Both the position numbers and the translations under genes were made by a program. A DNA stretch of 58,648 nt from Candidatus Faecicola pullistercoris (lineage in GTDB: Bacteria > Bacillota > Clostridia > Christensenellales > CAG-917). Location of the stretch: positions 1-58,648 of the forward strand of contig DVNW01000002.1 of assembly GCA_018714105.1 (NCBI GenBank), read 5' to 3'. The notes beneath the pieces were generated by a model. It had not been told where the DNA came from, ran no database searches, and saw only the letters and a program-made list of their open reading frames with translations. Shown here in pieces: positions 29,838 through 46,321 of the stretch. Position 1 is the stretch's first letter, and each line of letters starts with the position of its first letter.

Positions 29838-30320
29838 ATGGCTTGGTTATTGTCCGTTACGGGCATAGTCGCACTGGGGCTGCTTCTTGAAATTCTTCTG
29901 CCGACGGGTAAGACTTCAAAGTATATACGCGGCATTTTCGGACTGATAACGCTTTACGTAATAATATCGCCGCTGCCCGGAATTATCGATAAAATAGCCG
30001 ACACGGATTTTGAAAACGTCTTTTCAGACGTGGCCGTAGATTACGAATTCGTGGGGGATATTTCCGGCGATTATTTTGCGGGAAAGGAAAAACAGGCGGC
30101 AGCTCTTCTTGAAAAGATGGGATACGAAGGGGTTAAGGTGAATATTGTCGGAAAAGAGGGGATTTATTACGAAATTGAGTATATAAACGTGAATTTGGAG
30201 GATTGCGACATATCGGCAGACAAGCAGAATATATTTATTAGCGAAATAAAAACCGAGGTAAAAAACTTTTTCAAAATCAGCGACGAGGAGGTGCGTATAG
30301 TTGGATATAAAAGACATTAG
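29838..30320 (+). CDS. spoIIIAF: Stage III sporulation protein AF
   Basis: A 160-residue protein with two N-terminal transmembrane segments (about residues 3-21 and 33-52) linked by LLPTGKTSKYIRGIFG, a family hallmark. A soluble ring-building-motif-like domain follows. It starts immediately after the spoIIIAE stop. Confidence 0.92.
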   Translation: MAWLLSVTGIVALGLLLEILLPTGKTSKYIRGIFGLITLYVIISPLPGIIDKIADTDFENVFSDVAVDYEFVGDISGDYFAGKEKQAAALLEKMGYEGVKVNIVGKEGIYYEIEYINVNLEDCDISADKQNIFISEIKTEVKNFFKISDEEVRIVGYKRH

Positions 30321-30846: not shown

Positions 30847-30895
30847 CGAAAATCAGTCCGTACGGGACTAAAATAGACAAACATGGAGGTATATC

Positions 30896-31387
30896 ATGAA
30901 AAACGGCAACAAAAAAAAGATTATCGTACTATGCAGTATGCTGGTACTGTTGGTAGCAACGGGGTTTCTGAATTTTTATCTTAACGGCAAACTCGGCGAC
31001 AACAGCGACATGGGCGGCGACGGAGGCATAGTCACGACTACTTATTTCGGTACTTTCCGTTCGGACAGAGAGGCGCAGAGGCAGGAGATTTTCACCTATC
31101 TCGACAGCATCGTAGCGTCCGAGGCGTCTTCCGAAGAGGCGAAAGCGGCGGCTGAAAGCCAGAAGCTCGAACTGTGCGAGAAAATCGAACAGGAACTCAC
31201 TTTGGAAAATCTTATCAAGGCAAGCGGCTTCGAGGACGCGGTCATCACCATGAGCACGGGCAACCTCAACGTGGTGGTCAAGGCCGATAACGAACTCGAC
31301 AATTCTCAGGTAGCTCAGATTCTCAGCATAATTACGAGAGAAACGACATATACACCTTCGCAGGTCGTAATAGTTCCGTATAACTGA
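30896..31387 (+). CDS. spoIIIAH: Stage III sporulation protein AH
   Basis: A 163-residue SpoIIIAH-like protein, which in other species interacts with SpoIIQ across the intermembrane space. An N-terminal membrane anchor (about residues 7-24), a Gly/Asp-rich linker, a long charged helix (REAQRQEIFTYLDSIVASEASSEEAKAAAESQ), and a C-terminal ring-building domain are visible. It is shorter than the Bacillus protein (about 218). ATGGAGG lies before the ATG. The operon ends at the terminator 31414-31440. Confidence 0.92.
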   Translation: MKNGNKKKIIVLCSMLVLLVATGFLNFYLNGKLGDNSDMGGDGGIVTTTYFGTFRSDREAQRQEIFTYLDSIVASEASSEEAKAAAESQKLELCEKIEQELTLENLIKASGFEDAVITMSTGNLNVVVKADNELDNSQVAQILSIITRETTYTPSQVVIVPYN

Positions 31388-31413
31388 TGAGGCAGATATG
31401 TCGGGAGCAAAAG

Positions 31414-31440
31414 GCCGAAACTTTATGTTTCGGCTTTTTT
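31414..31440 (+). terminator. Terminator of the spoIIIA operon
   Basis: GCCGAAAC (31414-31421) pairs with GTTTCGGC (31427-31434), then six T. Confidence 0.9.
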
Positions 31441-31483
31441 GACGTTTATGCGTCATTTAGCCTTTATCCTTCCGAAAAATGGC

Positions 31484-31512
31484 TTTACATAAAAATAAAT
31501 AAATGATATAAT
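31484..31512 (+). promoter_or_regulatory. Sigma-A-type promoter of asp23-nusB-folD-xse-ispA
   Basis: TTTACA at 31484-31489, 17-bp spacer, TATAAT at 31507-31512. GGAGG and the ATG follow about 25 bp later. Confidence 0.75.
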
Positions 31513-31537
31513 TAATTAAACGTCCGGAGGAATACAA

Positions 31538-31873
31538 ATGGCTAACGTATCTGAAAGCAGGAACAATCAAATTTATGCCGAAATAATTACCTCTCTCGCC
31601 ACTACCGCAGCCGCTAAGGTGGAAGGTATAACCGTGCTCGGCAACGACAACAGCGGCAAGAAAAAGAAACTTCACGGCAGCGACGTGCAGGTATATTTTA
31701 TAAAGGATAAAGTTTCCATAGACATTTTCATTAACGTTTATTACGGTTACAGGGTGCCCGACGTGGTCTGCACCGTGCAGGAACATATCAAACAGGACGT
31801 CGAGGCGGCCACCAGATACAAGGTCGGTTCGATTAACGTAAAAGTAGTAAGCGTTATTTTCCCCAAACTCTGA
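31538..31873 (+). CDS. Asp23/Gls24 family envelope stress protein (YqhY-like)
   Basis: A 111-residue Asp23 family protein. It corresponds to yqhY, which lies before nusB in Bacillus subtilis and has been linked to control of acetyl-CoA carboxylase there. Family features are YAEIITSLATTAAAKVEGITVLG and VSIDIFINVYYGYRVPDVVCTVQEHIKQDVE. The accB-accC genes that sit between spoIIIAH and yqhY in Bacillus are absent here. Confidence 0.93.
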   Translation: MANVSESRNNQIYAEIITSLATTAAAKVEGITVLGNDNSGKKKKLHGSDVQVYFIKDKVSIDIFINVYYGYRVPDVVCTVQEHIKQDVEAATRYKVGSINVKVVSVIFPKL

Positions 31874-31887
31874 AAAAGGCACCGGTT

Positions 31888-32292
31888 ATGAGCAGAAGAA
31901 GCGCCCGCGAGGCGGCATATAAATTAACGTTTGAATATCTGTTTTACAATAAAGGCAACGACACCACTCTCGAATTGCTCACTCTAGACAGCAGTCTTTC
32001 CGACGACGACAAGGACTATATAAACAGGGTGTACGAGGGCATTCAGCGCGACTACGACAAGCTGTACGCGCTTATTTCCAGGCATTCGGGCAATTTCACG
32101 GCGGATCGTATATATAAACCCGATCTTGCCGCCATGATACTTTCGGCTTACGAGCTTGTGAACGAGCCTGAAATTTCCGCCGCGGTTTCCATATCCAGCG
32201 CGATAGAACTTGTAAAAAAATACTCTTCGGAAAAGAGCAATACTTTCGTTAACGGTATACTCGGAGCAATCAACAAGGAGGTGCGCGGATGA
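31888..32292 (+). CDS. nusB: Transcription antitermination protein NusB
   Basis: A 134-residue NusB, an all-helical RNA-binding factor that with NusE promotes antitermination in rRNA operons. It opens with SRRSAREAAYKLTFEYLF and contains DRIYKPDLAAMILSAYELVNEPEISAAVSISSAIELVKKYSSEKSNTFVNGILGAI, the family's C-terminal signature. It overlaps folD by 4 bp (ATGA). Confidence 0.95.
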   Translation: MSRRSAREAAYKLTFEYLFYNKGNDTTLELLTLDSSLSDDDKDYINRVYEGIQRDYDKLYALISRHSGNFTADRIYKPDLAAMILSAYELVNEPEISAAVSISSAIELVKKYSSEKSNTFVNGILGAINKEVRG

Positions 32293-33128
32293 TTATCGAC
32301 GGAAAGGCCGTAGCCTCCGGAATAAGAGAACAGATTAAACTTCGCGCGAAAAAACTTGCCGACGAGGGACGTCCCGCAGGGCTTGCGGTTATCAGAATCG
32401 GCGACGACGCGGCAAGCGAGGTTTACGTACGCAATAAAATCAAGGGTTGCACAGAGGTAGGCATATCGAGTTTCAGTTACGAGCTTCCCGCAACTACTTC
32501 GCAGGCCACGGTCATCGAGCTTATACGCGAACTCAATTCGCGCGACGACGTTCACGGTATACTCGTTCAGCTTCCGCTTCCGAAAGGACTCGACGAATCC
32601 GTGATTCTGGCCGCCATCGACGAAAGCAAAGACGTCGACGGTTTCAGCGCAAAACAGACGGGACTTCTGGCTCTCGGCACGCCCGACCTTGTAGCATGCA
32701 CGCCTCACGGCTGTATGGAGCTTATTAAAAGCACGGGCGTTCAGATAGCAGGCAAGCGCGCCGTTATCGTAGGGCGCAGCAATATAGTGGGCAAGCCCAT
32801 GTTTCATCTTCTGCTTGCCGAAAACGCCACTGTTACTGTATGCCACAGCAAAACCCGCGATTTAGTCGAACTGACAAGACAGGCCGACATACTTGTTGCC
32901 GCCCTGGGTAAGCCCCGCTTCGTGACGGCGGATATGGTTAAGGAAGGCGCGGTGGTTATTGACGTAGGCATCAACAGGGTTGACGGCAAACTCGTGGGCG
33001 ACGTGGATTTCGACGCGGTAAGCAAAAAGGCGTCGTATATTACGCCCGTTCCGGGCGGCGTCGGTCCGATGACAATTACCATGCTGCTTTACAATACCGT
33101 CAAAGCGGCTGAAAGAAGCGTGAAGTAA
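32289..33128 (+). CDS. folD: Bifunctional methylenetetrahydrofolate dehydrogenase/cyclohydrolase
   Basis: A 279-residue FolD interconverting methylene-, methenyl- and formyl-THF in one-carbon metabolism. Signatures are VYVRNKIKGCTEVGI (catalytic Lys), GILVQLPLPKGLD, SKDVDGF, the NADP motif AVIVGRSNIVGKPMFHLL and YITPVPGGVGPMTITML. Its last base overlaps xseA. Part of the conserved nusB-folD-xseA-xseB-ispA cluster. Confidence 0.97.
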   Translation: MIIDGKAVASGIREQIKLRAKKLADEGRPAGLAVIRIGDDAASEVYVRNKIKGCTEVGISSFSYELPATTSQATVIELIRELNSRDDVHGILVQLPLPKGLDESVILAAIDESKDVDGFSAKQTGLLALGTPDLVACTPHGCMELIKSTGVQIAGKRAVIVGRSNIVGKPMFHLLLAENATVTVCHSKTRDLVELTRQADILVAALGKPRFVTADMVKEGAVVIDVGINRVDGKLVGDVDFDAVSKKASYITPVPGGVGPMTITMLLYNTVKAAERSVK

Positions 33129-34318
33129 TGGAAAGACGCATAGTATCGGTAGGCGAATTCTGCAAAGCGTTCAAAAACGTTCTGTCAGCCGAGGTAATGC
33201 TTAATAATATTGCCGTCGGCGGCGAGATAAGCGGCTTCAAAATTTCGGGCGAGCACGCTTATTTTACTTTGAAGGACGAGGAGGCGGCGCTTCCTTGCAG
33301 TTGCTTCAATTACAGACGCACCTACGTTCCCAAAGAGGGCGAATCCGTAATTGCCGTCGGCAGTCCGGATTATTATCTTAAAGGCGGCAAATTCAGCTTT
33401 GTGGTTCGCAGTATCGAAGCCGTGGGGCTGGGGCTGCTTTACCTGAAAATAGAACAGCTGAAAAAAGAACTTGCCGCCGCAGGCGTTTTCGACGCGAGTC
33501 ATAAAAAGCCCGTTCCCGCTTTTTGTAAAAGCATTTGCGTGGTAACTTCGGCTACCGGCGCCGTTATACGCGACATAATAAAGACCGTAAGACTTAAAAA
33601 TCCCGTAATCGACATCACGGTAAAGGACGTGCGGGTGCAGGGTGCCGGAGCGGAAAAAGAAATCGCTTCGGCGATTAAAGCCGTGGACAGACTGGGGTAC
33701 GATTGCATAATCGTAGCGCGCGGAGGCGGCTCTCTTGAAGATCTTATGCCTTTTTACACAAGGGAAGTGGCAATGGCGGTTTACGAAGCCGATACCCCTA
33801 TAATAAGCGCCGTAGGACACGAAACGGATTTTTCGATATGCGATTTCGCGGCCGATCTGAGGGCGGCTACTCCTACCGCGGCGGCCGAAGCCGCGGCGTT
33901 CGATTATTACCGCATGCGCTCGGATATACTTTCCATGGCCGCCCGTATCAGGGAACGTACGGTAAAAAGGCTTACCGACGGGTTCAACGATACCAAATAC
34001 AGTTGCAGCCTGCTTTCGGCGAAGCTTCAGAAAAAGAGCGAAAGCGACTACGCAAAAGTGCGCATAGCCCTGCTTACCTTAAAGCAGCAGGTGGAAACGC
34101 TTTATCGCGCACGCGCGTTCGAGATAGAAAAATGCATGACGGCGCTTGATAAACTCAATCCCGTAAAAGTGCTTAAATCCGGTTATTTCCGCATATACGC
34201 AGGCGGTCTGCCGGTTATGAGCGTCAAAGAAGTCAAAGCCGGCGACTTGATAGAGGCCAGAGGCGCCGACGGCAGGATAACGGCAAAGGTAGAAAAGGTG
34301 GAGGAAGAAAATTTATGA
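33128..34318 (+). CDS. xseA: Exodeoxyribonuclease VII large subunit
   Basis: A 396-residue XseA, the catalytic subunit of a bidirectional single-strand DNA exonuclease. An N-terminal OB fold (~1-100) has LNNIAVGGEISGFKISGEHAYFTLKDEEAALPC. The catalytic domain has VVTSATGAVIRDIIKT, IIVARGGGSLEDLMPFYTREVAMAVYEADTPIISAVGHETDFSICDFAADLRAATPTAAAE. The C-terminal helical part is somewhat shorter than in Bacillus (448). It overlaps xseB by 4 bp. Confidence 0.97.
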   Translation: MERRIVSVGEFCKAFKNVLSAEVMLNNIAVGGEISGFKISGEHAYFTLKDEEAALPCSCFNYRRTYVPKEGESVIAVGSPDYYLKGGKFSFVVRSIEAVGLGLLYLKIEQLKKELAAAGVFDASHKKPVPAFCKSICVVTSATGAVIRDIIKTVRLKNPVIDITVKDVRVQGAGAEKEIASAIKAVDRLGYDCIIVARGGGSLEDLMPFYTREVAMAVYEADTPIISAVGHETDFSICDFAADLRAATPTAAAEAAAFDYYRMRSDILSMAARIRERTVKRLTDGFNDTKYSCSLLSAKLQKKSESDYAKVRIALLTLKQQVETLYRARAFEIEKCMTALDKLNPVKVLKSGYFRIYAGGLPVMSVKEVKAGDLIEARGADGRITAKVEKVEEENL

Positions 34319-34533
34319 CTTTTGAGCAGATGTACGCAAAACTCGACGAAATCGTCAAAAAGCTCGAGGGACAGGGCGTCGGCCTGGAAGAAAGCATCAA
34401 ACTTTTCAACGACGGATTGGAACTTTCCAGAAAGTGCCTTGAAAGTTTAAACCAGAGCAAGGGCAAAATTTTGCTTTTGACGGACGAGCTTAACAAACTC
34501 ACCGAAGAATTCAATCCCGATGGCAGAAATTAA
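34315..34533 (+). CDS. xseB: Exodeoxyribonuclease VII small subunit
   Basis: A 72-residue XseB, forming a helical hairpin that binds XseA. It has the usual TFEQMYAKLDEIVKKLEGQGVGLEESIKLFNDGLELSRKCLESL. It overlaps xseA by 4 bp and ispA by 14 bp. Confidence 0.95.
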   Translation: MTFEQMYAKLDEIVKKLEGQGVGLEESIKLFNDGLELSRKCLESLNQSKGKILLLTDELNKLTEEFNPDGRN

Positions 34534-35359
34534 CGCTGACAACCTGCTTTACAGGCTTCTGAAGCTGAAAGCGGAAGATTATATAAACGGTTATATAGGT
34601 ACGCTCGAAGCGCCCGAGCCTCTTATTTCCGCCATGAAATACGCCCTCGAGGGCGGAGGAAAGAGAATAAGGCCGGTACTCACTCTTCTGGGCGCGCGCA
34701 TAGGCGGGGGGAAAGAAGACGACGCGCTTCCTTTCGCACTTGCCGTCGAGCTGGTGCATACCTATTCGCTCATACACGACGATTTGCCTTGTATGGACGA
34801 CGACGACATGCGCCGAGGACGGCCTACCGTGCATAAAAAGTTCGGCGAAGCCGTGGCCGTGCTTACGGGCGACGCACTGCTTAACGCCGCTTTCGAAGTG
34901 CTTGCGGCAGAGCTGTTGAAAGACGCGTCCGCCCCGCGGACGGAAGCCTTTGCTCTGCTTGCCGAATGCGCGGGAATGAAGGGCATGATAAAAGGGCAGA
35001 TTATGGATATCTCCACATATCCTTATCCTCTTGAGGAAATCAATATGGGAAAAACCTGCGCGCTGATAAGATGCGCCCTTCTTATGGGAGCAAAAGTCGG
35101 CGGAGCAAGCGAGGTATTACAGGAAAGCCTTAAAGTTTACGCGGATAATCTCGGCATGGCTTTTCAGATTGCCGACGACATACTCGATTACGATGCGGGC
35201 GAGCGGAGCGATATTAATTACGTAGAGGTAAACGGAATGGAAAAGGCGGCCCGGGCCGTAGCTTATCATACTGCAAAGGCAAAGGAAGCCGTTATGCCGT
35301 ACGGTCGCAGGGAGGAACTTATCGGGCTGGCGGATTATCTTATGAACAGAAAAAACTGA
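34520..35359 (+). CDS. ispA: Polyprenyl (farnesyl) diphosphate synthase
   Basis: A 279-residue trans-prenyltransferase making farnesyl or geranyl diphosphate from IPP and DMAPP. The first Asp-rich motif HDDLPCMDDDDMRRGRPT is at residues 86-103. The second, DDILD, is at 219-223. The stretch after DDILD is about 12 residues shorter than in typical FPP synthases and lacks the GKPxGSDxxxxKxTY segment, going straight to AGERSDINYVEVNGMEKA. Product length or activity may therefore differ. It is the last gene before the bidirectional terminator 35390-35416. Confidence 0.92.
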   Translation: MAEINADNLLYRLLKLKAEDYINGYIGTLEAPEPLISAMKYALEGGGKRIRPVLTLLGARIGGGKEDDALPFALAVELVHTYSLIHDDLPCMDDDDMRRGRPTVHKKFGEAVAVLTGDALLNAAFEVLAAELLKDASAPRTEAFALLAECAGMKGMIKGQIMDISTYPYPLEEINMGKTCALIRCALLMGAKVGGASEVLQESLKVYADNLGMAFQIADDILDYDAGERSDINYVEVNGMEKAARAVAYHTAKAKEAVMPYGRREELIGLADYLMNRKN

Positions 35360-35389
35360 AAAAGTTCCGAAAACAAATGAATTAATTAA

Positions 35390-35416
35390 AAAAACGGCAA
35401 AAATGCCGTTTTTTAA
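35390..35416. terminator. Bidirectional terminator between ispA and the MATE gene
   Basis: The stem ACGGCA (35394-35399) with TGCCGT (35404-35409), AAAA loop, is flanked by an A run on the left and a T run on the right. It therefore works for ispA on the plus strand and the convergent MATE gene on the minus strand. Confidence 0.85.
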
Positions 35417-36850
35417 TTATGAAAACGAATTCACGGTGCGCTTGCAGTCGGTTATTTCCGACAGAGGTTTTTTGTTTGATTTTATAAGTTTTACGGTATA
35501 AAACCAAAACATGGCGCCAACAGTTATCGCGCTCAACGTCCAGAGTATCGGTTCCGAAAAGCACACGGCGGTATATCCGAATTTCGGGGTAAGGCCGAAA
35601 GCGATTATGACTTTGCCCGCGCACTCTATGAGGCTTGCAAGCAAAGGAGCTGCTTTTTTGCCTATGCCGGGCATGCTTTCGCGGGCCAGCAGCATGAGTC
35701 CGAGCGCAAGGAAGAACGGAATATTGATTTTAAGATAATAAAATGCGGTGGATATTACGTCGGCGTTATCCGTAGTCGCCAGCCATGCAAGCAGAATCCT
35801 GCCCAGAGTAAAGGTGACGAGAAGCGCGAGAGCCGACCATATCAGAGCAAGGAAGGCGGCGTCGATAATACCTTTTCTGATACGTTCATATTTTGCCGCG
35901 CCGAAGTTCTGACTGACGAAGGTAGCCAGTGCGGCGGCTATGGCCGAGAAAGGCATCATCAGCATTTCGTCGATTTTGCGGGCTACCGTATGCGCGGTAA
36001 TTGTAACCAGGCCGAGCCCGTTTATTGCGGCCTGAAGCGAAATCGAGCCTATGGCGACGATGGATTCCAAAAATCCCATTGTCGCGCCCGTGGCAAGAAT
36101 TTCCTTGACCTTTCCGAATCTGAATTTAAAATCGCTTTTGACGGGTTTCAGATAGGGGTTGGTTTTTGCTGCATAGAAAAAGCATGCCAGGGCGGATATG
36201 AACTGAGCCGCGACGGTAGCGTATCCCGCGCCGCCCACGCCCATGTCGAAAACCAGTATGAACGCATAATCCAGCACGATATTTATCACGGTGGACAACA
36301 GCAGAAACATGATAGGAGCCACGGGGTTTCCCATAGCGCGCAGCAGAGCGGCGAAAAGGTTAAAAAACATTGTAAACAATATACCGGCGAATATAACCGT
36401 AATATATTCCGCCGACATGGCTATAATTTCGTCGGGAGTGTCTAGAAGCCTCAGCAGAGGTTTTGCCGACGCGCAGCTCAGCGCGGTAAGCAAAATGCTT
36501 ATCGCAACGGTAACAACGTAGGAGCAACCTATGGTTTTACGCATATCGTCGAATTTTTCCGCGCCGAAGTATTTTGCTACGACTATACCCATGCCGTTAG
36601 CCATGCCCGTGGCGAAGCCGATTATGAGAAAAGACAGCGAAGCGGTTGCGCCTACGGCGGCAAGCGCCGTTTCGCCCAGAGTCGCGCCTACTATTTTTGT
36701 GTCCACGAGATTATAAAGCTGTTGGAGAACGTAGCCGAAAAGCACGGGAAATGCAAATCCCAAAAGATGTTTCATCGGACTTCCGACAGTGTAATCGCCT
36801 GTTGTTTTCAGCTTTCTTTCTTTTAAAAAATCAATATTTATTCCACTCAT
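35417..36850 (-). CDS. MATE family efflux transporter
   Basis: A 477-residue, 12-segment MATE antiporter that likely exports cationic drugs or metabolites using Na+ or H+. Features are an N-terminal GSPMKHLLGFAFPVLFGYVLQQLYNLVDTKIVGATLGETALAAVGATASLSFLIIGFATGMANGMGIVVAKYFGA and the repeated-half homology (GATMGFLESIVAIGSISLQAAINGLG). It resembles the clostridial MepA/DinF-type branch. It faces ispA and diverges from the AraC-family gene, so this pair interrupts the usual ispA-dxs linkage. Confidence 0.93.
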   Translation of the reverse strand: MSGINIDFLKERKLKTTGDYTVGSPMKHLLGFAFPVLFGYVLQQLYNLVDTKIVGATLGETALAAVGATASLSFLIIGFATGMANGMGIVVAKYFGAEKFDDMRKTIGCSYVVTVAISILLTALSCASAKPLLRLLDTPDEIIAMSAEYITVIFAGILFTMFFNLFAALLRAMGNPVAPIMFLLLSTVINIVLDYAFILVFDMGVGGAGYATVAAQFISALACFFYAAKTNPYLKPVKSDFKFRFGKVKEILATGATMGFLESIVAIGSISLQAAINGLGLVTITAHTVARKIDEMLMMPFSAIAAALATFVSQNFGAAKYERIRKGIIDAAFLALIWSALALLVTFTLGRILLAWLATTDNADVISTAFYYLKINIPFFLALGLMLLARESMPGIGKKAAPLLASLIECAGKVIIAFGLTPKFGYTAVCFSEPILWTLSAITVGAMFWFYTVKLIKSNKKPLSEITDCKRTVNSFS

Positions 36851-36944
36851 AAGTTTTTATATTCCGGTCCTTTTTTTATCAATGAGATTTTAGTTTTTTT
36901 TGCAAGAAAGTATATTAAAATAATTTTTTTTATATCAAAATAAT

Positions 36945-36972
36945 TTGTTTTTTTATAAAACCGCGCTATAAT
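36945..36972 (+). promoter_or_regulatory. Promoter for the AraC-family regulator
   Basis: TTGTTT at 36945-36950, 16-bp spacer, TATAAT at 36967-36972, in an AT-rich gap of about 140 bp shared with the divergent MATE gene. The gap could also hold an operator, but no clear inverted repeat was seen. Confidence 0.5.
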
Positions 36973-36990
36973 GTTTTTAAGGAGAAGGCT

Positions 36991-37758
36991 ATGACGCAAA
37001 GTAAGGAAAAATCAGTGAAAACGCAGGACGAAATACTTGCCGACATAGAGTACGCAAGGCGCGAGAGCGAGACGAAACACCACGGTTACAAGGACGAAAC
37101 CGAACTGTATAGGAAGTTACAGTCGGGCGACGCTGACTGTGTGGACAAATTTTGTCGGCTGTTCGAGTCCGGCGCAACGGGAAAGCTGTCCGACGACGGG
37201 TTGCGCAACAAGAAATATCTTTTTGTGGCTTTTATGACGATGTGTACCAGATACGCCATAGAAGGCGGAATGGAAGAGACGTATGCGTACGACCTAAGCG
37301 ATACCTATATACGATCGGCCGACGAGTGCGCGGATATTCAAAGTCTGCAACGCCTTTTCAGACGAACGGTAAACGACATGGTAGCCGGCATGAAAGCCTT
37401 GCTCGACCGCAAGGCATATTCGAGGCCCGTAAATCAAGCCGTTAGTTACGTGAACAAAAACCTTCACACCGTAACCGAGGTGGAAGAATTAAGCCGTGCG
37501 GCGGGTCTGTCGAAGGCGTATTTCATATCCGTATTCAAGGAGGAAACGGGGCTTTCGCCTATGGAGTACGTCAGGCGGGAAAAGCTTAAAGCGGCGCAAA
37601 AACTTTTGAAATATACCGATTACGACTATTCGTACATAGCCTATCTTTTCAATTTCAGCTCGCTGAGCCATTTCATAAGCGTTTTCCGCAAGTATGCGGG
37701 CGTAACGCCACGCGTTTATCGCGAGAGATTTTATCAGCACGACTGGCAGGGTAAATAA
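36991..37758 (+). CDS. AraC family transcriptional regulator
   Basis: A 255-residue regulator. The C-terminal ~100 residues contain the two AraC helix-turn-helix motifs: VTEVEELSRAAGLSKAYFISVFKEETGLSPMEYVRREKLKAAQKLLKYTDYDYSYIAYLFNFSSLSHFISVFRKYAGVTPRVYRE. The N-terminal ~150 residues are helical and lack a recognisable cupin; the stretch LRNKKYLFVAFMTMCTRYAIEGGMEETYAYDLSDTYI recalls other clostridial AraC-type proteins. AAGGAGAAGG precedes the ATG. Divergence from MATE suggests it controls that exporter. It is also just upstream of the OLE RNA promoter. Confidence 0.9.
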   Translation: MTQSKEKSVKTQDEILADIEYARRESETKHHGYKDETELYRKLQSGDADCVDKFCRLFESGATGKLSDDGLRNKKYLFVAFMTMCTRYAIEGGMEETYAYDLSDTYIRSADECADIQSLQRLFRRTVNDMVAGMKALLDRKAYSRPVNQAVSYVNKNLHTVTEVEELSRAAGLSKAYFISVFKEETGLSPMEYVRREKLKAAQKLLKYTDYDYSYIAYLFNFSSLSHFISVFRKYAGVTPRVYRERFYQHDWQGK

Positions 37759-37785
37759 AACGGGAAAACAATATTATATTGTCGT

Positions 37786-37814
37786 TTGACAATTTTATTT
37801 TATTAGCATATAAT
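37786..37814 (+). promoter_or_regulatory. Consensus sigma-A promoter of the OLE RNA
   Basis: A perfect TTGACA (37786-37791), 17-bp spacer and TATAAT (37809-37814) predict transcription from about 37821, at the base of the closing helix of the RNA. It is the strongest promoter seen in the window. Confidence 0.85.
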
Positions 37815-37824
37815 ATATATAAAA

Positions 37825-38415
37825 TATGGTGGTGCAGTATTCTAGTCGGGTCAACCACTTCGAAGGCGGGGTTAAAATACCGTTAAAGGGCACATCGATG
37901 AAGTTTCTTGTGATGGCCTTTGTTGCCCAAACAAGGGTTGTTGCTGGAAGTTAAGGTTTTTGGGCGGTTCGTAACGGCATACGAAAGGCGACCCAGCTAC
38001 CGTGGAGACCTGTATCGGTGAACGTAAAACCGTTTACTGACCGGGGTAAAACCTGTAATGCGGCGAAAGCTGTGTGCAGAGTAGCCTGCTTTGAGCGGAA
38101 ACAGCGGATTAAGGAACCACGCATAGCGCCGTTGGCCAATGGCGCAGTGCGATTGCCTTATGAAACTTATTCTGCAAAAGAAGATAGAAGTGATTCTGGC
38201 CTGTCAAGGAAATCTTCTAGACTGTTCCGAAAGAGATATACCGGGGATTATAGTATGCTCTAAGTGGCAATCCAGTCCGACCTAAGGTAACTTGGTTTGT
38301 CTGCGGCGTAATAGGAAACTTCCCGTTCGGCGACGACGGGTTTCCGCAGGGGGAAAGCCTACTGGACCTGAAGGCGTAAGGTTTACTCGGTATATTGCCA
38401 CCATAATTTTTTTTT
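37825..38415 (+). ncRNA. ole: OLE RNA (ornate, large, extremophilic RNA)
   Basis: A ~580-nt non-coding, structured RNA between ispA/araC and oapA-dxs, the exact locus of OLE RNA in Firmicutes. TATGGTGG (37825-37832) pairs with CCACCATA (38398-38405), closing the molecule, and a run of nine T (38407-38415) follows. Internal helices include GCGCCGTT (38126-38133) with AATGGCGC (38138-38145), GGCC loop, extended by GCAT/GTGC, and a CCCGT/ACGGG hairpin near 38325-38340. Purine-rich GAAAG, GGAAAC and CGAAAGG stretches fill the loops, as in other large structured RNAs. The only sizable frame inside (38018-38263) has no ribosome binding site. Known OLE RNA is ~600 nt, very abundant, forms a membrane-bound complex with OapA, and is linked to stress tolerance. 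The call rests on context, length, architecture and the downstream OapA. Confidence 0.88.
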
Positions 38416-38442
38416 ATAACGGCTTCGGCCGGGGAGACAGAA

Positions 38443-39108
38443 ATGGAAGAAAGCGAAAACAGGACTGACGAGGCCGCCGCAAGCGAGCAGCCGTCCGCTC
38501 CTGTCGTTGCGGAAGAAAAAGGCACTTCAAAAAACGCGAAACAAGATAAAAAGCAGTCGGAAAAGAAGTCGGTTAAGAAAGGCGGGTTAAAAAACCATTG
38601 GGCGATAAAAGCCACGGTCATAACCTTTTTTCTTTCGGCTTTTTTCAGTTTGCTTTCCGAACTGACGGCGTCTGCCGGCATAATAGTAACTACGCTGCTG
38701 CTCGTATTTCTGATATTCTGCGGCGTACTGTTCGACGGCGTAGGAGTAAGCGTTGCGGCTTGTGAACTCGCTCCGCTCATGTCCATGGCTTCAAAAAAGG
38801 TCCCGGGTGCGAAAACGGCAATCAAACTCGTTAAAAACGCCGAAGTGGTTTCCAATATCTGTAACGACGTAATAGGCGACTGCTGCGGTATTCTTTCGGG
38901 TGCGTGCGCTTCCGCGGTGGTAATAAAACTTATGATGATACTTCCCGGCACTTACGAAAAGATTATAGCCATAGTTATGAGCGCGGTGGTATCCGCCATT
39001 ACGGTAGGCGGCAAGGCGTTTTTAAAGAACGTAGCCATCAATAATGCAAAGGATTTCGTAATGTTCACATCGAAAGTCATATCTGTATTTATCAAGGAGA
39101 AAAGATAA
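38443..39108 (+). CDS. oapA: OLE-associated membrane protein OapA
   Basis: A 221-residue membrane protein directly after the OLE RNA. Residues 1-50 are a Lys/Glu-rich extension. About four transmembrane segments follow (near 54-73, 77-97, 150-172 and 180-202). The middle has a distinctive Asp-containing block: FDGVGVSVAACELAPLMSMASKKVPGAKTAIKLVKNAEVVSNICNDVIGDCCGILSG, where two short Asp clusters could bind metal. In Bacillus halodurans OapA binds OLE RNA and localises it to the membrane. GGGGAG is upstream of the ATG, preceded by a small GGC-TTCG-GCC hairpin. dxs begins immediately after the stop. Confidence 0.87.
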   Translation: MEESENRTDEAAASEQPSAPVVAEEKGTSKNAKQDKKQSEKKSVKKGGLKNHWAIKATVITFFLSAFFSLLSELTASAGIIVTTLLLVFLIFCGVLFDGVGVSVAACELAPLMSMASKKVPGAKTAIKLVKNAEVVSNICNDVIGDCCGILSGACASAVVIKLMMILPGTYEKIIAIVMSAVVSAITVGGKAFLKNVAINNAKDFVMFTSKVISVFIKEKR

Positions 39109-40791
39109 TTGCTGACGGACAAAATCAAATCCGCCGACGCAGTCGAGCTTGAAAGAGTAGCTGCCGACGTGCGTTCGGATATAATAAACGTAATAAGAAA
39201 AAACGGAGGGCACCTTGCGTCTAACCTCGGCGTCGTAGAGGTTACCGTAGCCCTTTATAAGGTATTCGATTTCCCCAAGGATAAACTGATATTCGACGTA
39301 GGGCATCAATGTTACGCGCACAAGATAATCACGCGCGGCAGAGAGGCTTTTTCGTCCATAAGGAAAAAGGGAGGGCTCAGCGGTTTTCCTAAAAGCGGCG
39401 AAAGCGTATACGACTGTTACGATTTCGGACACAGCAGTACTTCGCTGTCCGTTGCCTGCGGTTTTATGCGCGCGAGAAAACTTAAAGGCGAGAATTTTGA
39501 AATAATAAGCCTGATAGGAGACGGCGCGCTTTCGGGCGGCATGATTTACGAGGCTCTGGGGGACGCTTATTCCATAGGAGAAAAGCAGATAATAATCCTT
39601 AACGACAACAAAATGGCCATATCTCCGACCGTAGGCGGTATGAGCGCGGGGCTTTCGGACGCGGCCGGCACCAAAGAGTTTTTCGCAAGATTCGGGTTTA
39701 AGTACGTTGACGGCGTAGACGGTCACGATATAGGCGCTTTAATCGACGCGTTCACGGCGGCAAAAAACGGTACGGAGCCCGTTGTTATAAGAGTAAGCAC
39801 CCGAAAAGGAAAAGGGCTGGACGAGGCGACGGTGTCTCCCGAAAAATATCATTCGGTAAGCGCCGAAAGTCCCGCGGGAAGTTATTCTGCCGTTGCGGGC
39901 GAAACGCTCAAGGAAATGGCGGCAACAGACGGGAATATCGTGGCCGTAACCGCGGCGATGAAGGACGGAACGGGTCTTTCGGCTTTTGCCGAGGCATATC
40001 CCGACAGGTTTATCGACGTGGGCATCTGCGAAGAACACGCCGCAACCATGTGCGGCGCTATGGCTAAGGCGGGATTAAAACCGTACTTTGCCGTATATTC
40101 GAGCTTTATGCAGCGCGCTTTCGACCAGATTATACACGACAACGCTTTGCAGAATCTGGACGTAAAGTATCTCGTAGACAGAAGCGGGGCGGTAAACGAC
40201 GACGGCGAAACGCATCAGGGCATATTCAATTTAAGTTTCCTGAGTCTTATACCCAACATGAAAATCGTCGCGCCGAAAAACTTTGCCGACCTCAAATATA
40301 CTTTGCCGCAAACGCTTGCCGAAAAAGGCCCGATAGCCGTCAGGTATCCCAAAAGCAGTTTGTCCGAAGGGGACGACGCTGACCAAACGGCTTTCGGCAG
40401 ATGGGCCGAACCCGATTCCGACGCGGACGGCATAATACTTACAACAGGGGCAGTTATGTATGCAAAAGGCGTAAAACTGGCAAAAAGTATTATGAAAAAC
40501 GGCTTAAAATTAAGTACTGTCAACGCAAAATACATATGGCCTCTCGACGAGAATTGGCTTGTCGAATTTGCAGATAAGCCTATAATGATACTCGAAGACA
40601 ATGAGAGGCGGGGCGGTTTTTACGAGGCGGTTTTATCCTTTTATGCAGACAAAGGCTTGCGTGCCGGACTGACCGCGGTAAACTTTCCTCAAAGCTTTCT
40701 CTGCGTCGGTACGCTTGACGAACTGCTCGACGAATACGGCTTTTCCGACGACAGACTTCTGTCGCTCGCCGGGGCGTTTTTTGCAAAATGA
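39109..40791 (+). CDS. dxs: 1-deoxy-D-xylulose-5-phosphate synthase
   Basis: A 560-residue thiamine-diphosphate enzyme joining pyruvate and glyceraldehyde-3-phosphate, the first step of the MEP pathway. ThDP/Mg motifs are GDGALSGGMIYEALGDA and NDNKMAIS; DVGHQCYAHKIITGR-type His site and GICEEHAATMCGAMAKAG (catalytic Glu) are present. It is about 60-70 residues shorter than the Bacillus enzyme (633), mostly through a shortened linker after the first domain. Start is TTG at 39109, adjacent to the oapA stop, with AAGGAGAA inside oapA. It overlaps tlyA by 4 bp. Confidence 0.95.
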   Translation: MLTDKIKSADAVELERVAADVRSDIINVIRKNGGHLASNLGVVEVTVALYKVFDFPKDKLIFDVGHQCYAHKIITRGREAFSSIRKKGGLSGFPKSGESVYDCYDFGHSSTSLSVACGFMRARKLKGENFEIISLIGDGALSGGMIYEALGDAYSIGEKQIIILNDNKMAISPTVGGMSAGLSDAAGTKEFFARFGFKYVDGVDGHDIGALIDAFTAAKNGTEPVVIRVSTRKGKGLDEATVSPEKYHSVSAESPAGSYSAVAGETLKEMAATDGNIVAVTAAMKDGTGLSAFAEAYPDRFIDVGICEEHAATMCGAMAKAGLKPYFAVYSSFMQRAFDQIIHDNALQNLDVKYLVDRSGAVNDDGETHQGIFNLSFLSLIPNMKIVAPKNFADLKYTLPQTLAEKGPIAVRYPKSSLSEGDDADQTAFGRWAEPDSDADGIILTTGAVMYAKGVKLAKSIMKNGLKLSTVNAKYIWPLDENWLVEFADKPIMILEDNERRGGFYEAVLSFYADKGLRAGLTAVNFPQSFLCVGTLDELLDEYGFSDDRLLSLAGAFFAK

Positions 40792-41552
40792 GACTCGATC
40801 TTTACATTGCCGAAAAATTTTCGCTGCGTTCGAGAAGCATGGCGGCAAATCTCATTAAAAAGGGCGCGGTTACCGTCAACGGCAAAATTTGCCTTAAAAC
40901 GGCTTTTGAAGCCAGCGCCGACGACGACGTGACCCTCGAAAACGAAAATTACGCCAGTCTGGGCGCATACAAACTTCAAAAAGCGCTGGATATCTTCGGC
41001 ATAGACGTTGCAGGCAAAAAAATTGCGGATATAGGCGCGTCGAACGGCGGGTTTACCGATTGTATGCTTAGGCGCAACGCCGCGGTAATATATGCGGTGG
41101 ACGTTTCCGAATGCATGCTCGACGAAAAGCTCTTGTCGGACGGAAGGGTGATTTACAAACGCCTCAACGCAAGAAACCTCACTGCGGACGATACCGACGG
41201 CCCCGTGGATTTTGTTACCGTCGATCTCAGTTTCATATCTCTGAAAACCGTAATACCTGCGCTTAAAAATCTGCTTGACGCAGACGGCGAGATGGTCTGT
41301 CTTATCAAGCCGCAGTTCGAACTCGGGCGCATGGCGGGAAAAAGTGGAATTGTCAAACCCGAAGACAGGCGTAAAATTCTGAACGACTTATCCGCATATT
41401 TTTACAATCAGGGTCTGACCGTAAAGGATATTTGCGCCGTTCCGCGTATTTTCGAAGATAAAAACGTGGAGTATACTTGCCGTCTTTCTTTCAGGCGGGG
41501 CGACGAAACCCCCATGGTTTTCGATAAAGAGGCTTTCGGTAAAATCAAATAA
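40788..41552 (+). CDS. tlyA: TlyA family rRNA (cytidine-2'-O)-methyltransferase
   Basis: A 254-residue protein with an N-terminal S4 RNA-binding domain (MRLDLYIAEKFSLRSRSMAANLIKKGAVTVNGK) and an FtsJ-like SAM methyltransferase domain (KKIADIGASNGGFTDCMLRRNAAVIYAVDV; VTVDLSFISLKTVIPAL; CLIKPQFELG). TlyA homologues methylate 16S and 23S rRNA and have been called hemolysins. In Bacillus subtilis yqxC lies in the same place after dxs. Confidence 0.95.
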   Translation: MRLDLYIAEKFSLRSRSMAANLIKKGAVTVNGKICLKTAFEASADDDVTLENENYASLGAYKLQKALDIFGIDVAGKKIADIGASNGGFTDCMLRRNAAVIYAVDVSECMLDEKLLSDGRVIYKRLNARNLTADDTDGPVDFVTVDLSFISLKTVIPALKNLLDADGEMVCLIKPQFELGRMAGKSGIVKPEDRRKILNDLSAYFYNQGLTVKDICAVPRIFEDKNVEYTCRLSFRRGDETPMVFDKEAFGKIK

Positions 41553-41616
41553 TCGGCCGCTTATTTTTTAAAAATTCTTTTACGATAAAAAAATTTATAA
41601 ATATACCTGAAAATGA

Positions 41617-41645
41617 TTGAAATAGGTGTAATTATACAGTATAAT
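41617..41645 (+). promoter_or_regulatory. Sigma-A-type promoter for nadK-argR-recN
   Basis: TTGAAA at 41617-41622, 17-bp spacer, TATAAT at 41640-41645, 31 bp before the nadK start. Confidence 0.75.
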
Positions 41646-41675
41646 GTTTTTACATATTAAAAAGGCGGAAATTTT

Positions 41676-42533
41676 ATGCAGATAGGCATTTTTGCCAACG
41701 GGCTCAGAGACGTAGGTTTCAAAGTGGCGGACAAGCTGGTATCCGTTCTCGAAAGCAAGGGTATAAAAGTTAAAATTCACAAACAGACGGAAGAGAATTA
41801 CATTTTCCCCGATAACGCCGCCCGAACGCTTAAAGGCTGCGACGTGATTATGATTCTCGGAGGCGACGGTACCGTGCTCAGCGTGGCCGGGTTCGCTTCG
41901 GACAACAATATTCCGCTGCTGGGCGTCAATACCGGTCATACGGGTTTTCTTACCGAAGTGGAAGCGGACGGATTGGAGGAGGCGGCTGCGCACCTTGCAA
42001 GCGGGGATTATTCCGTGGAGGAGCGCTCCACGGTAAGCGTGGATATAGGCGGGAAGAGCTATTTCGCGCTTAACGACGTCGTACTTTCAAAAGGGGCGAA
42101 TACCCGTCCCGTGGATATAAAAGTGGACGTAGACAGCCAGTTGCTTGACAGGTACTTTGCCGACGGTATAATAATCAGCACGCCTACGGGTTCGACGGCA
42201 TATTCGCTTTCCGCGGGCGGTCCCGTACTGTCGCCCGACATAGAGGGGCTGATAATAATTCCCATATGCGCGCATTCGCTTCACAGCAGGCCTCTTGTAG
42301 TTTCGGACAAGCATACGCTTTACGTAAGTACCGAGCCTCATCCTAAAAACACCGCCGTTATAGTTGACGGCAAAACCGTATGCGAATTATCCTATAAAAC
42401 GGAATTTTTTGTTAAAAAATCGCAAAAAACGGTTAAATTTATTAAAATTAACGGTAAATCGTTTTACAGTAAGCTGCTGCATAAGATGAATTACTGGGGC
42501 GTTACCGACATCGATTCGAACGATAAGGAGTAA
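41676..42533 (+). CDS. nadK: NAD kinase
   Basis: A 285-residue NAD+ kinase making NADP+. Motifs are IMILGGDGTVLSVAGFA (GGDG), GVNTGHTGFLTEVEADGLEEAA, RSTVSVDIGGKSYFALNDVVLSKG and TPTGSTAYSLSAGGPVLSPD. An AAGGCGG ribosome binding site lies upstream. It is inserted between tlyA and argR relative to Bacillus subtilis, an order common in Clostridia. argR begins six bases after it. Confidence 0.97.
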   Translation: MQIGIFANGLRDVGFKVADKLVSVLESKGIKVKIHKQTEENYIFPDNAARTLKGCDVIMILGGDGTVLSVAGFASDNNIPLLGVNTGHTGFLTEVEADGLEEAAAHLASGDYSVEERSTVSVDIGGKSYFALNDVVLSKGANTRPVDIKVDVDSQLLDRYFADGIIISTPTGSTAYSLSAGGPVLSPDIEGLIIIPICAHSLHSRPLVVSDKHTLYVSTEPHPKNTAVIVDGKTVCELSYKTEFFVKKSQKTVKFIKINGKSFYSKLLHKMNYWGVTDIDSNDKE

Positions 42534-42538
42534 ACTTT

Positions 42539-42991
42539 ATGGCACGTTCCGCACGACAGTTAAGATTGCTTGAAATCATAAATAAAACAAATATCGAAAC
42601 TCAGACCGATCTTGCCGACGCACTCAGGGAGGAGGGGTTTGACGTTACTCAGGCCACCGTTTCCCGCGATATCAAGGAGCTGGGCCTTATAAAAGTAATG
42701 ACTCCTCAGAAAACCTATAAATACGCTCAACCCGCCTCTAAGGAAAACCAATCGTCGGGCAGACTTCTCAATCTGTTCAGGGAATCGGTTATCAACATCG
42801 ATTCCGCTCAGAATATCGTTGTGGTAAAAACCCTTTCGGGTACGGCGAATTCGGCCTGCTCGCTTATAGACAAGATGAACCTTTCGGAAATTATCGGGTC
42901 TGTTGCGGGCGACGATACCATCATACTTATCGTCAAGGACGAAAAATACGTCGAAGCAATAGTGGACAAACTCAATTCGCTGATGATTTAG
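42539..42991 (+). CDS. argR: Arginine repressor
   Basis: A 150-residue ArgR/AhrC. The N-terminal winged helix (RLLEIINKTNIETQTDLADALREEGFDVTQATVSRDIKELGLIKV) binds ARG boxes. The C-terminal hexamerisation and arginine-binding domain contains NIVVVKTLSGTANSACSLIDKMNLSEIIGSVAGDDTIILIVKD, with the usual GTA and GDDT motifs. AAGGAG precedes the ATG. Conserved argR-recN linkage. Confidence 0.97.
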   Translation: MARSARQLRLLEIINKTNIETQTDLADALREEGFDVTQATVSRDIKELGLIKVMTPQKTYKYAQPASKENQSSGRLLNLFRESVINIDSAQNIVVVKTLSGTANSACSLIDKMNLSEIIGSVAGDDTIILIVKDEKYVEAIVDKLNSLMI

Positions 42992-42995
42992 AAAA

Positions 42996-44690
42996 ATGCT
43001 TGCCTCTCTTCAGATCACGAACATCGCAATAATCGAAAAAATAGAAATCACTCTTTCGCGCGGTCTTAACATACTTTCGGGCGAAACGGGCGCGGGTAAA
43101 TCCATTATCATAGATTCGCTCAATTTCGTGCTGGGCGAAAGAGCGGACAAATCGCTTATAAGGTTCGGGGAGGACAGCGCCTCCGTTCAGGCCGTCTTCG
43201 AGGATTATATTAACGGTAGCGTGGCGGCCTATCTCGAAGATACGGGCATTGAAGCGGAAGAGGTGCTTATTCTGTACAGAAAAATGACCGCGGAAGGCAA
43301 AAACGAGTGCAGGATAAACGGCAGACAGGTTACGCTGTCCGTACTTAAAGGCCTTACCGAGCTGCTTGCCGACATCCACGGTCAGCACGAGCATCAGGCC
43401 TTGTTAAAGCCGTCCGTTCACATGGGCTTTCTCGATTTATACGGCAAAGAGGTTACTGCCGCCGCGAAACGCGCTTATTACGACAAGTATTGCGAGCACA
43501 GGAAAGTGCTGAAAGAGCTGTCGGAATTCGGGGACGAAGAAGAGCGTCTCCGCCGCATGGACGTACTTAAATATCAGATAGAAGAAATCCGAAAAGCCTG
43601 CGTAAAAGAAGGAGAGCAGGAAAACCTTATAGCCGAACGCACCAGGCTCCGCAATTTCGAGAAAATCAAAACCGCTTTGGAAACGGCTGCGGCCGCGATC
43701 GACGGCATGGGAGGCAATTCGGCAGCCGGACTTCTGAACTCGGCAAGACACGCCCTGACTTCGGCCGTCGCATACGACGAAAGACTTGCCGAACTCGAAG
43801 AGCGTCTCGAAAGCGCAAAAATCGAAGTGCAGGATATTGCCGAGACGCTAGGCGATCTTTTGTATTCGCTGGGAGCAAGCGGAAACCTCGAAGCCGTAGA
43901 AAACCGACTTGAAAAAATACGCAATCTGTTCAAGAAATACGGCGGCGATTACCCGTCGCTTACCGAGTACGCCGAAACGGCAGAAGAGGAATACGATAAG
44001 CTGTCGGGCGCGGCGGACAGGGTTGCGGAGTTGACCGTTAAGGCGGAAAAAACGCTTCGCGAATTACAAAAATGCGCCGAAAATCTGACCGAAAACCGCA
44101 AAAAAACGGCAAAAGAACTTGAAATTGCCGTAAAAAAGGAGCTTGCGGATCTGGGGATGGGCGGCGCGATGTTCAAAACGGAAATAACTCCGTCGGCCGA
44201 TTATACGCCTTCGGGCGCGGATAACGCCGAGTTCACCGTAAGTTTCAACAAAGGCACGCCGTTAAAGCCTCTTGCCAAAGTAATATCGGGAGGCGAGATG
44301 AGCAGATTTATGCTTGCTTTCAAAAATATTTCGGCGGACGGCGACGGAATCGCCACTATGGTTTTTGACGAAATCGATACCGGCATAAGCGGAAATATAG
44401 CGCAGGTGGTAGCGCAGAAACTGGTTAATATTTCGCGCGATAGGCAGGTGATAGCCGTAACGCATTTGCCTCAGCTGGCAAGCATGGCCGACAAACATTT
44501 TCTCATAGACAAAAGCGAAAAGGACGGAAAAACCCTTACTTCGCTGTTGCCCCTCGACCGCGACGGACGCGAAAAGGAGATTGCCAGACTTATCGGCGGC
44601 GACGGTTACAGCGGACACGCTTTGCCGCACGCGAGAGAGATGCTGACTTACGCCGACGAATACAAGAACTCGATTGCAAAGCCGCGATGA
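42996..44690 (+). CDS. recN: DNA repair protein RecN
   Basis: A 564-residue SMC-like ATPase acting early in double-strand break repair. Walker A GLNILSGETGAGKSIIIDSL, ITNIAIIEKIEI at the start, IHGQHEHQALL, two coiled-coil arms (~150-360), signature VISGGEMSRFMLAFKNI, Walker B TMVFDEIDTGISG and AVTHLPQLASMADKHF are all present. Its start lies four bases after argR without an obvious ribosome binding site, so coupling is likely. The terminator 44679-44703 overlaps its stop codon. Confidence 0.97.
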   Translation: MLASLQITNIAIIEKIEITLSRGLNILSGETGAGKSIIIDSLNFVLGERADKSLIRFGEDSASVQAVFEDYINGSVAAYLEDTGIEAEEVLILYRKMTAEGKNECRINGRQVTLSVLKGLTELLADIHGQHEHQALLKPSVHMGFLDLYGKEVTAAAKRAYYDKYCEHRKVLKELSEFGDEEERLRRMDVLKYQIEEIRKACVKEGEQENLIAERTRLRNFEKIKTALETAAAAIDGMGGNSAAGLLNSARHALTSAVAYDERLAELEERLESAKIEVQDIAETLGDLLYSLGASGNLEAVENRLEKIRNLFKKYGGDYPSLTEYAETAEEEYDKLSGAADRVAELTVKAEKTLRELQKCAENLTENRKKTAKELEIAVKKELADLGMGGAMFKTEITPSADYTPSGADNAEFTVSFNKGTPLKPLAKVISGGEMSRFMLAFKNISADGDGIATMVFDEIDTGISGNIAQVVAQKLVNISRDRQVIAVTHLPQLASMADKHFLIDKSEKDGKTLTSLLPLDRDGREKEIARLIGGDGYSGHALPHAREMLTYADEYKNSIAKPR

Positions 44691-44703
44691 AAGCGGCTTT
44701 TTT
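44679..44703 (+). terminator. Terminator overlapping the end of recN
   Basis: AAGCCGC (44679-44685) pairs with GCGGCTT (44693-44699), followed by T. The stop codon TGA (44688-44690) lies in the loop. Confidence 0.82.
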
Positions 44704-44722
44704 ATTTGGAAACTTTTTACTT

Positions 44723-44751
44723 TAATATTTTAAAGCCGCCGTAACAGAATA
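44723..44751 (+). promoter_or_regulatory. Candidate sigma-G-type promoter of spoIVB
   Basis: TAATA (44723-44727) and CAGAATA (44745-44751), 17 bp apart, resemble the forespore sigma-G pattern. The predicted start coincides with the ATG at 44757. spoIVB is a sigma-G gene in Bacillus subtilis. Confidence 0.35.
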
Positions 44752-44756
44752 GCATT

Positions 44757-45908
44757 ATGAAAAAATCGATATTTAAATTTTTTGCGGCAATCTTAATGCT
44801 TATTTCGGTTGCTGTGGGGCTCAGTCTGGAAATGGCTCCCGCAAGCGGCGTTTACACGGTTAGCGAAATAGAACAGACAAAAGCGATAGCGCCCGTTACC
44901 CTTAGCGTAAGCCGCGACGGCGAGCGGGTAACATTCGATTATAAACTCTTCGATTTTATCGACATTAAAAAAATATCGGGCAAAGTCGGAGAAAACAGGG
45001 TATACCTAGGCGGTCGTCCGATAGGGCTTACCGTCAGCGCGGACGGCGTGATAGTTATAAGCAAAAACGCCGTCGTTACCGAAAACGGACTTGCTTTTCC
45101 TTGCGAGGACGCCGATTTGAAATGCGGCGACGTTATAGAAAAAGTAAACGGCAAAACTGTAAGCACGTTTGAAAATTTCGGTCTCGCGGTAGGAGACAAT
45201 CCCGAGGCTGTTCTGGAAGTGGACAGGAAGGGACAAAAGTTTTCCGTTACGGTAAACCCCGCAAAAGACGCGCTTACAGGCAAGTACAAGCTGGGGCTTA
45301 AAATAAAGGAGGGCGTAAGCGGTATAGGAACGCTGACTTACGTTACCGAAAAGGCCGGCTTCGGCGCGCTTGGACATTACGTTATCGACGGAGAAACGGG
45401 GTTATCCTCGCAGCTTGACGGAGGCAAAATCTACAAAGCGGTAATTAACGGAGTAGTAAAAGGACGGCGCGGAGCGGCAGGCGGACTTGAAGGCGCGTTC
45501 AACAAGTACGACGGACAGACGGGCACGATAAACAAAAACAATAATTTCGGCATATTCGGTAATTATACCGCTTCGCTCGAAGGCTTTGAAAAAATAGAAG
45601 TAGGCGGCGCGGATAGCGTTAAGGTGGGGAAAGCGCAGATTTATACTACGGTGGACGGAGCAACGCCCGATTATTACGATATCGAAATAATAAAAGCCAA
45701 GGCCCAGTCCCGACCGGAGGAAAAGAGTATGGTGATTTCGGTTACCGACAAGCGCCTTCTCGAAAAGACGGGCGGAATAGTACAGGGAATGAGCGGCAGT
45801 CCCATTATTCAGAACGGTAAAATCATCGGCGCGGTCACACACGTGTTTGTGAACGACCCGACAAAGGGATACGGTTTGTATATAGGCTGGATGCTGGGTA
45901 ATGATTAA
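44757..45908 (+). CDS. spoIVB: SpoIVB peptidase (stage IV sporulation signalling protease, S55)
   Basis: A 383-residue secreted serine protease which, in Bacillus, is made in the forespore and cleaves SpoIVFA to trigger pro-sigma-K processing. An N-terminal signal anchor (~5-25), a PDZ domain (~90-165, DLKCGDVIEKVNGKTVSTFENF) and an S55 protease domain are visible. The domain carries GFGALGHYVIDGETG (His) and GGIVQGMSGSPIIQNGKIIGAVTHVFVNDPTKGYG (Ser). Length is close to the Bacillus protein. recN-spoIVB-spo0A order is conserved, here with a reduced Spo0A. No Shine-Dalgarno sequence is seen before the ATG. Confidence 0.95.
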   Translation: MKKSIFKFFAAILMLISVAVGLSLEMAPASGVYTVSEIEQTKAIAPVTLSVSRDGERVTFDYKLFDFIDIKKISGKVGENRVYLGGRPIGLTVSADGVIVISKNAVVTENGLAFPCEDADLKCGDVIEKVNGKTVSTFENFGLAVGDNPEAVLEVDRKGQKFSVTVNPAKDALTGKYKLGLKIKEGVSGIGTLTYVTEKAGFGALGHYVIDGETGLSSQLDGGKIYKAVINGVVKGRRGAAGGLEGAFNKYDGQTGTINKNNNFGIFGNYTASLEGFEKIEVGGADSVKVGKAQIYTTVDGATPDYYDIEIIKAKAQSRPEEKSMVISVTDKRLLEKTGGIVQGMSGSPIIQNGKIIGAVTHVFVNDPTKGYGLYIGWMLGND

Positions 45909-45991
45909 AATAGCATATAATATGTAAAAAAACGCAAAAATCCTCAAAAAAGGAAGGCTGTACGGTGCTACTCTTAAAGCGAGAGGAGCAT

Positions 45992-46321
45992 ATGGAACAA
46001 AAAATTCAGAACTATCTTTTGAAACTCGGCTTCGTGCCCAACAAACTCGGGTACAGAATGCTTTACGACATACTGTTATGGGGGGCGAGCGGGGAAAACC
46101 TGCTTCCTCTCAAATACGTAGCTTATCCCAGGCTGTCGCTTAAATACGGCAAAAACAGCGACGCCGTGGAAAAAGACATTCAGAACGCCATATCCGTAGC
46201 CTGGCTGAAAGGAGACGTAGGCGAACTTTACGGCGAATTCGGCGAGACTATAGACATGCGGAAGGGTAAGCCTACTAACAAACAGTTCATTCTGACGGCT
46301 TTGGTCAGGTTATCGGTATAA
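45992..46321 (+). CDS. Spo0A-type DNA-binding domain protein lacking the receiver domain
   Basis: A 109-residue protein consisting only of the Spo0A C-terminal effector domain. It aligns by eye with Spo0A from the helix after the linker to the end: IQNYLLKLGFVPNKLGYRMLYDIL, the recognition region VEKDIQNAISVAWLKGD and the C-terminal KPTNKQFILTALVRL. Full Spo0A is about 267 residues with an N-terminal phospho-acceptor receiver. Here only 83 bp separate the ATG from spoIVB, so no receiver is hidden upstream. GAGAGGAG serves the ATG at 45992; a GTG at 45965 would add nine residues. It occupies the conserved spo0A locus. It may be a constitutive DNA-binding regulator or antagonist of a full Spo0A elsewhere. 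Confidence 0.88.
   Translation: MEQKIQNYLLKLGFVPNKLGYRMLYDILLWGASGENLLPLKYVAYPRLSLKYGKNSDAVEKDIQNAISVAWLKGDVGELYGEFGETIDMRKGKPTNKQFILTALVRLSV

Follow-up and report, generated by a model that had tools for sequence, protein, structure and literature searches.

Which part of the membrane protein OapA meets the OLE RNA, and what OapA does alone, are the questions raised by an OLE–oapA locus in the window, the whole stretch of 58,648 nucleotides of Candidatus Faecicola pullistercoris DNA that was analysed. To our knowledge, OLE is among the largest structured bacterial RNAs that lack a known biochemical function. The locus itself is ordinary; the new result comes from its relatives, which make both parts of this open question testable.

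An ordinary OLE locus

An earlier note, made from the sequence alone, had proposed that an untranslated region here encodes OLE RNA and had called for a covariance-model search. The Rfam OLE model RF01071 matches the plus strand at 37813–38417 with 469.2 bits (E = 1.3e-134; the curated threshold used, the gathering score, is 50), from position 1 to position 616 of its 616 positions. With 605 nt aligned to all model positions and large deletions absent, the gene falls into the full-length class, a choice between this class and variants 1 or 2 (short P7–P9, missing end of P13) that was judged by alignment, the published bit-score limits belonging to another model. OLE is the sole match above cut-off in a curated-score scan of positions 30000–46000, and a genome-wide search gives a copy number of one in the host. 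In a consensus fold of 30 OLE sequences from the same order, 108 of the 164 predicted pairs display at least one two-sided change. That the region is instead an untranslated leader of a different kind, or protein-coding sequence, as overlapping reading frames of 81 and 62 amino acids might suggest, is already refuted by the model score and by these compensated changes. The OLE RNA gene in the window is real, full-length and unexceptional, and adds one more member to a known class.

The sigma-70-type consensus promoter that the note had called perfect, TTGACA-17-TATAAT at 37786–37814 (plus strand), matches at 12 of 12 positions, and the two arms of the closing helix P1, TATGGTGG at 37825–37832 and CCACCATA at 38398–38405 (both given on the plus strand), are exact complements, again as claimed. 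The T-run said to end the region does follow the 3′ arm, but no local terminator hairpin was found before it, and we rejected it as an intrinsic terminator on that ground; as the T-run sits after the long-range helix P1 and not after a local hairpin, a terminator role is not required.

The oapA gene (38443–39108, plus strand, 221 amino acids) starts 26 nt past the end of the OLE match, and its stop abuts the start of dxs (39109–40791, plus strand; TIGR00204, 528 bits), which is followed by a gene for a tlyA-type methyltransferase (40788–41552, plus strand; S4 and FtsJ domains, TIGR00478 at 170 bits, below cut-off). The oapA reading frame adjoins OLE in 30 of 30 OLE loci examined. The usual upstream neighbour, an ispA-type prenyl synthase gene, is found at 34520–35359 (plus strand; PF00348, 154.7 bits). 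The isoprenoid/tlyA/argR/recN neighbourhood described in the note is thus present, but a position directly after ispA is not, as two further genes, one on the minus strand for a MATE transporter and one on the plus strand for an AraC-type regulator, intervene at 35417–37758. In several relatives, unlike in the window, ispA is the direct neighbour. In three genomes of family f13 (G013, G063, G117) and for the L082 OapA, OLE and oapA are found at a distance from each other or on separate contigs, which shows that the tandem arrangement is not universal. Compared with the RF01071 systems of Halalkalibacterium halodurans and Clostridium botulinum, the window has in common all 616 model positions, P1, the downstream oapA and the genomic context, and differs in its small gut-type Clostridia host and in the MATE and AraC-type genes between ispA and OLE.

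The protein downstream of OLE had been described as a four-segment membrane protein with an Asp-rich conserved block, and both features are those of OapA. Hydropathy and AlphaFold2 both fit four predicted membrane helices. The score against the CNNM family (PF01595) is 27.7 bits, just below the cut-off of 28.4; in the published histogram of CNNM scores, OapA ranks next after MpfA (PMC11332333). A PDB sequence search with OapA returned no relative, and the CNNM likeness is visible by fold comparison only: the best solved fold relatives of the AlphaFold2 model (48 locus sequences, mean pLDDT 83.5) are CNNM/CorB proteins, with a Z score of 12.5 over 130 residues to MtCorB and of 8.4 for the next unrelated fold. 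This comparison repeats one that has already been published (PMC11332333). The Asp-rich block is D142-V-I-G-D146 (38866–38880, plus strand), the DxxxD hallmark of OapA, which is kept in all OapAs compared, with or without OLE, and is absent from CNNM domains (PMC11332333). MpfA, CorC and CorB, which carry CBS and CorC_HlyC domains next to the CNNM domain, share the CNNM fold with the 221-residue window protein, whereas the latter has the DxxxD motif and neither a CBS nor a CorC_HlyC domain. The window OapA is conserved with 21 OLE-adjacent homologues. It resembles the H. halodurans OapA in its four membrane helices, DxxxD motif, CNNM-like fold, conserved cytoplasmic-side basic pair and position beside ole, and differs from it in its N-terminal tail, which is basic, about 50 residues long and modelled at low pLDDT. 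By analogy with its family, the window OapA would bind OLE RNA.

The OLE particle in the host and its order

The host is a member of the Clostridia; its genome assembly spans 1.62 Mb over 28 contigs and is 98.4% complete. The nearest named relatives of its OapA come from gut metagenome bins, namely Candidatus Stercoripulliclostridium (placed by NCBI taxonomy in Clostridia, Eubacteriales incertae sedis), Christensenella-labelled bins, and rumen and colon Clostridia. A gut mesophile is therefore a fair inference and the likely identity of the host, in line with the gut-type, non-extremophile organism that the earlier note had envisaged, although its placement in Clostridium does not hold in the strict sense of the genus.

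OapB (90 amino acids) is encoded between map and infA (L038:7847-8119), its best PDB match being 7k9b, OLE-associated protein B (E = 4e-10), and OapC (YbxF) is encoded directly upstream of rpsL (L037:7169-7423), with YbxF 3v7e as its best match (E = 1e-12). CorC_HlyC (PF03471), the mark of MpfA, has no match anywhere in the host genome. With the genes for OapB and OapC each in its customary operon and an MpfA-type transporter absent, the particle looks complete, and the gene set looks like the constitution expected of an OLE-dependent species.

The same components were surveyed in a sample of 200 genomes from the window's own order (G-labels denote genomes, L-labels loci or contigs). OLE occurs in 100 of them. 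Both OLE and CorC_HlyC are present in 22 genomes, OLE only in 78, CorC_HlyC only in 76 and neither in 24, so that the two are strongly anticorrelated (Fisher 1.5e-14, from counts uncorrected for phylogeny). OapB is nearly universal (188/200), and L7Ae-type proteins, among which OapC and YlxQ were not separated, track OLE. The claim that the locus widens the context of OLE beyond extremophiles is not supported in view of this frequency and of the literature: Fernando and Breaker (PMC11332333) found OLE in 2,822 Bacillota genomes, among which the uncultured clades TANB77 and RF39 from the gut are represented, and the RNA was reported from anaerobes generally in 2024 (PMC11332333). We therefore rejected novelty through habitat.

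OapA was detected in 123 survey genomes, and 25 genomes have OapA without detected OLE. OLE without detected OapA was seen in two genomes of family f13 (G041 and G083), in whose congeners oapA and ole are unlinked. Contigs of four genomes (G195, G204, G034, G171) end inside the OLE gene and mimic short or double OLE genes, which we rejected as such; assemblies probably break there owing to the strong conservation of OLE across species. A 789-nt OLE of G187 was likewise set aside, as it contains runs of N. An 831-nt OLE match in G030 (L156:347-1177) has three expanded stem regions, the usual length being about 600 nt.

OapA in genomes that lack OLE

It has been stated that OLE and OapA 'might never appear independently' (PMC11332333). 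Three lineages carry OapA at its home locus without OLE: family f5 (10 sampled genomes, including Candidatus Alloclostridium intestinigallinarum, L111), family f7 (G007 and G037) and genus g62 (two of its 10 members, G137 and G196). In the eleven f5, f7 and g62 loci that were read for spacing, ispA and oapA lie on one contig and the gap between them, where OLE would be expected, is 31–102 nt. Permissive search thresholds brought up no OLE, either at the RNA-free loci of the three lineages or elsewhere in the genomes that contain them. CorC_HlyC is present in all 14 RNA-free genomes of these lineages and absent from each of the seven g62 genomes that have OLE; within this genus, OLE loss goes with MpfA presence.

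Such genomes could be artefacts, either because OLE dropped out during assembly or because its sequence has diverged beyond the reach of the model. They are metagenome bins, OLE genes are known to break at contig ends (G195, G204), and the L082 OapA seemed RNA-free until a search of the genome revealed an unlinked OLE. This explanation is nevertheless improbable, considering (i) that the gaps on single contigs are too short to accommodate OLE, (ii) that 13 of the 14 sampled RNA-free genomes are 95–98% complete, and (iii) that the sensitive search that came back empty in these genomes does find OLE in seven g62 congeners. L082, whose block of residues described below is intact, was rejected as a case of RNA-free OapA, and G101, G105 and G159 were not counted, being incomplete assemblies or having congeners with unlinked OLE.

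In an OapA tree from which the block tested below was left out, f7 is sister to the window OapA (support 0.77), and f5 and the pair of RNA-free g62 sequences are placed at other points among sequences from OLE-bearing genomes; some of the deeper nodes are weak. The scattered positions of f5, f7 and g62 suggest that OLE was probably lost several times; it was probably deleted in place at least three times in related gut Clostridia, most recently, it would seem, in g62. Subject to confirmation in closed genomes, the f5, f7 and g62 genomes contradict the published inseparability of OLE and OapA. The RNA-free OapAs of these lineages, like those of family f28 treated at the end, have the core with DxxxD in common with the window protein, and those of f5, f7 and g62 also share its gene slot.

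A predicted cytoplasmic hairpin and its erosion in RNA-free OapA

OapA residues 111–122 (PLMSMASKKVPG; 38773–38808, plus strand) form a predicted hairpin that is conserved with OLE and follows the pattern PxxxMxx[KR][KR][VI]xG. This block comes after membrane helix 2 and before helix 3, on what is predicted to be the cytoplasmic face, and AlphaFold2 models it as a helix-turn-helix with pLDDT 96–97. Its positions P111, M115, K/R118, K/R119, V/I120 and G122 are 87–98% conserved among 107 OLE-linked OapAs from several orders, and the same six positions are kept in 0–33% of twelve f5 sequences. D98, D142, G145, D146, G153, T187, V188, K191 and K195 are retained in every f5 sequence. In total, f5 has lost eight of 62 conserved columns: six of six within the block, against two of 56 outside it (Fisher 4.6e-7). 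The block is mostly gone in f28, partly gone in f7 and nearly intact in g62; its erosion is found in the two longest-diverged RNA-free groups, with the membrane core and DxxxD unchanged. The nearly complete retention in g62 and the partial one in f7 fit a recent loss of OLE and are not independent proof; the f5 erosion represents one lineage with shared ancestry, and the f28 paralogue has other changes too (at residues G189 and G190).

A basic cytoplasmic cluster of OapA was earlier proposed as an RNA contact (PMC12265935). On the evidence of its conservation pattern, we infer that block 111–122 is this OLE-dependent contact and probably serves in RNA docking. Alternatively, OLE and OapA form a standard pair, and the block has a role unrelated to RNA, such as a contact between OapA subunits or with a partner that was lost together with OLE. 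The predicted helix-turn-helix, modelled with high confidence, could also be a protein interface, and OapA-binding sites have so far been mapped on the RNA side only (PMC12265935). However, the KK/KR pair of the block is conserved and would face the cytoplasm, which matches the proposed positive cluster (PMC12265935), and nearly all conserved positions that f5 has lost fall within the block, the remainder of the core being kept. A role unrelated to RNA is thus unlikely, though worth keeping in mind.

With 111–122 as the candidate docking site, we propose the following model. OLE, OapA, OapB and OapC would form a membrane OLE ribonucleoprotein that stands in for an MpfA-type system in the handling of divalent metals and in the stress response; that OLE is localised at the membrane and has stress phenotypes is established from published H. 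halodurans work. The membrane core of OapA (DxxxD, TVGGKAxxK) would carry the ion-handling role, dealing with divalent metal itself, and could act independently of the RNA. OLE would dock at the 111–122 hairpin, or the hairpin would answer to OLE, and the RNA would in this way control or scaffold OapA. Once MpfA is acquired, it would take over control, making OLE dispensable first and OapA later or never. We put the probability of this explanation as a whole, in which the OLE particle stands in MpfA's place, the OapA core is autonomous, OLE docks at 111–122 and MpfA frees the cell from OLE, at roughly 0.6. We also incline, with somewhat better than even confidence, to the combined claim that OapA outlives OLE (at least three in-place losses being probable), that residues 111–122 dock or read the RNA, that OapA has a core function of its own, and that the inseparability statement is wrong. 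Genomes in which OapA is kept and the RNA is gone would separate the two roles naturally: they predict which twelve OapA residues face the RNA, and their OapA is the protein to test for metal transport.

Family f28 (L129–L134) holds a second, RNA-free OapA, whose gene lies beside a ribosomal L20 leader, mostly after proS. CorC_HlyC is absent from the f28 genomes that have this RNA-free OapA, which implies that MpfA is not a universal replacement. Two of them, G052 and G138, hold an OLE-linked OapA as well; the block reads PFMAMASKKVKGAK or PFRAMAAKKIRGAK in their OLE-linked OapA and YFLLQKEKNNQGSE, or a similarly altered stretch, in the RNA-free one. The L20 leader of f28 scores 27–51 bits, below the Rfam cut-off of 58.7, and is thus a divergent form.
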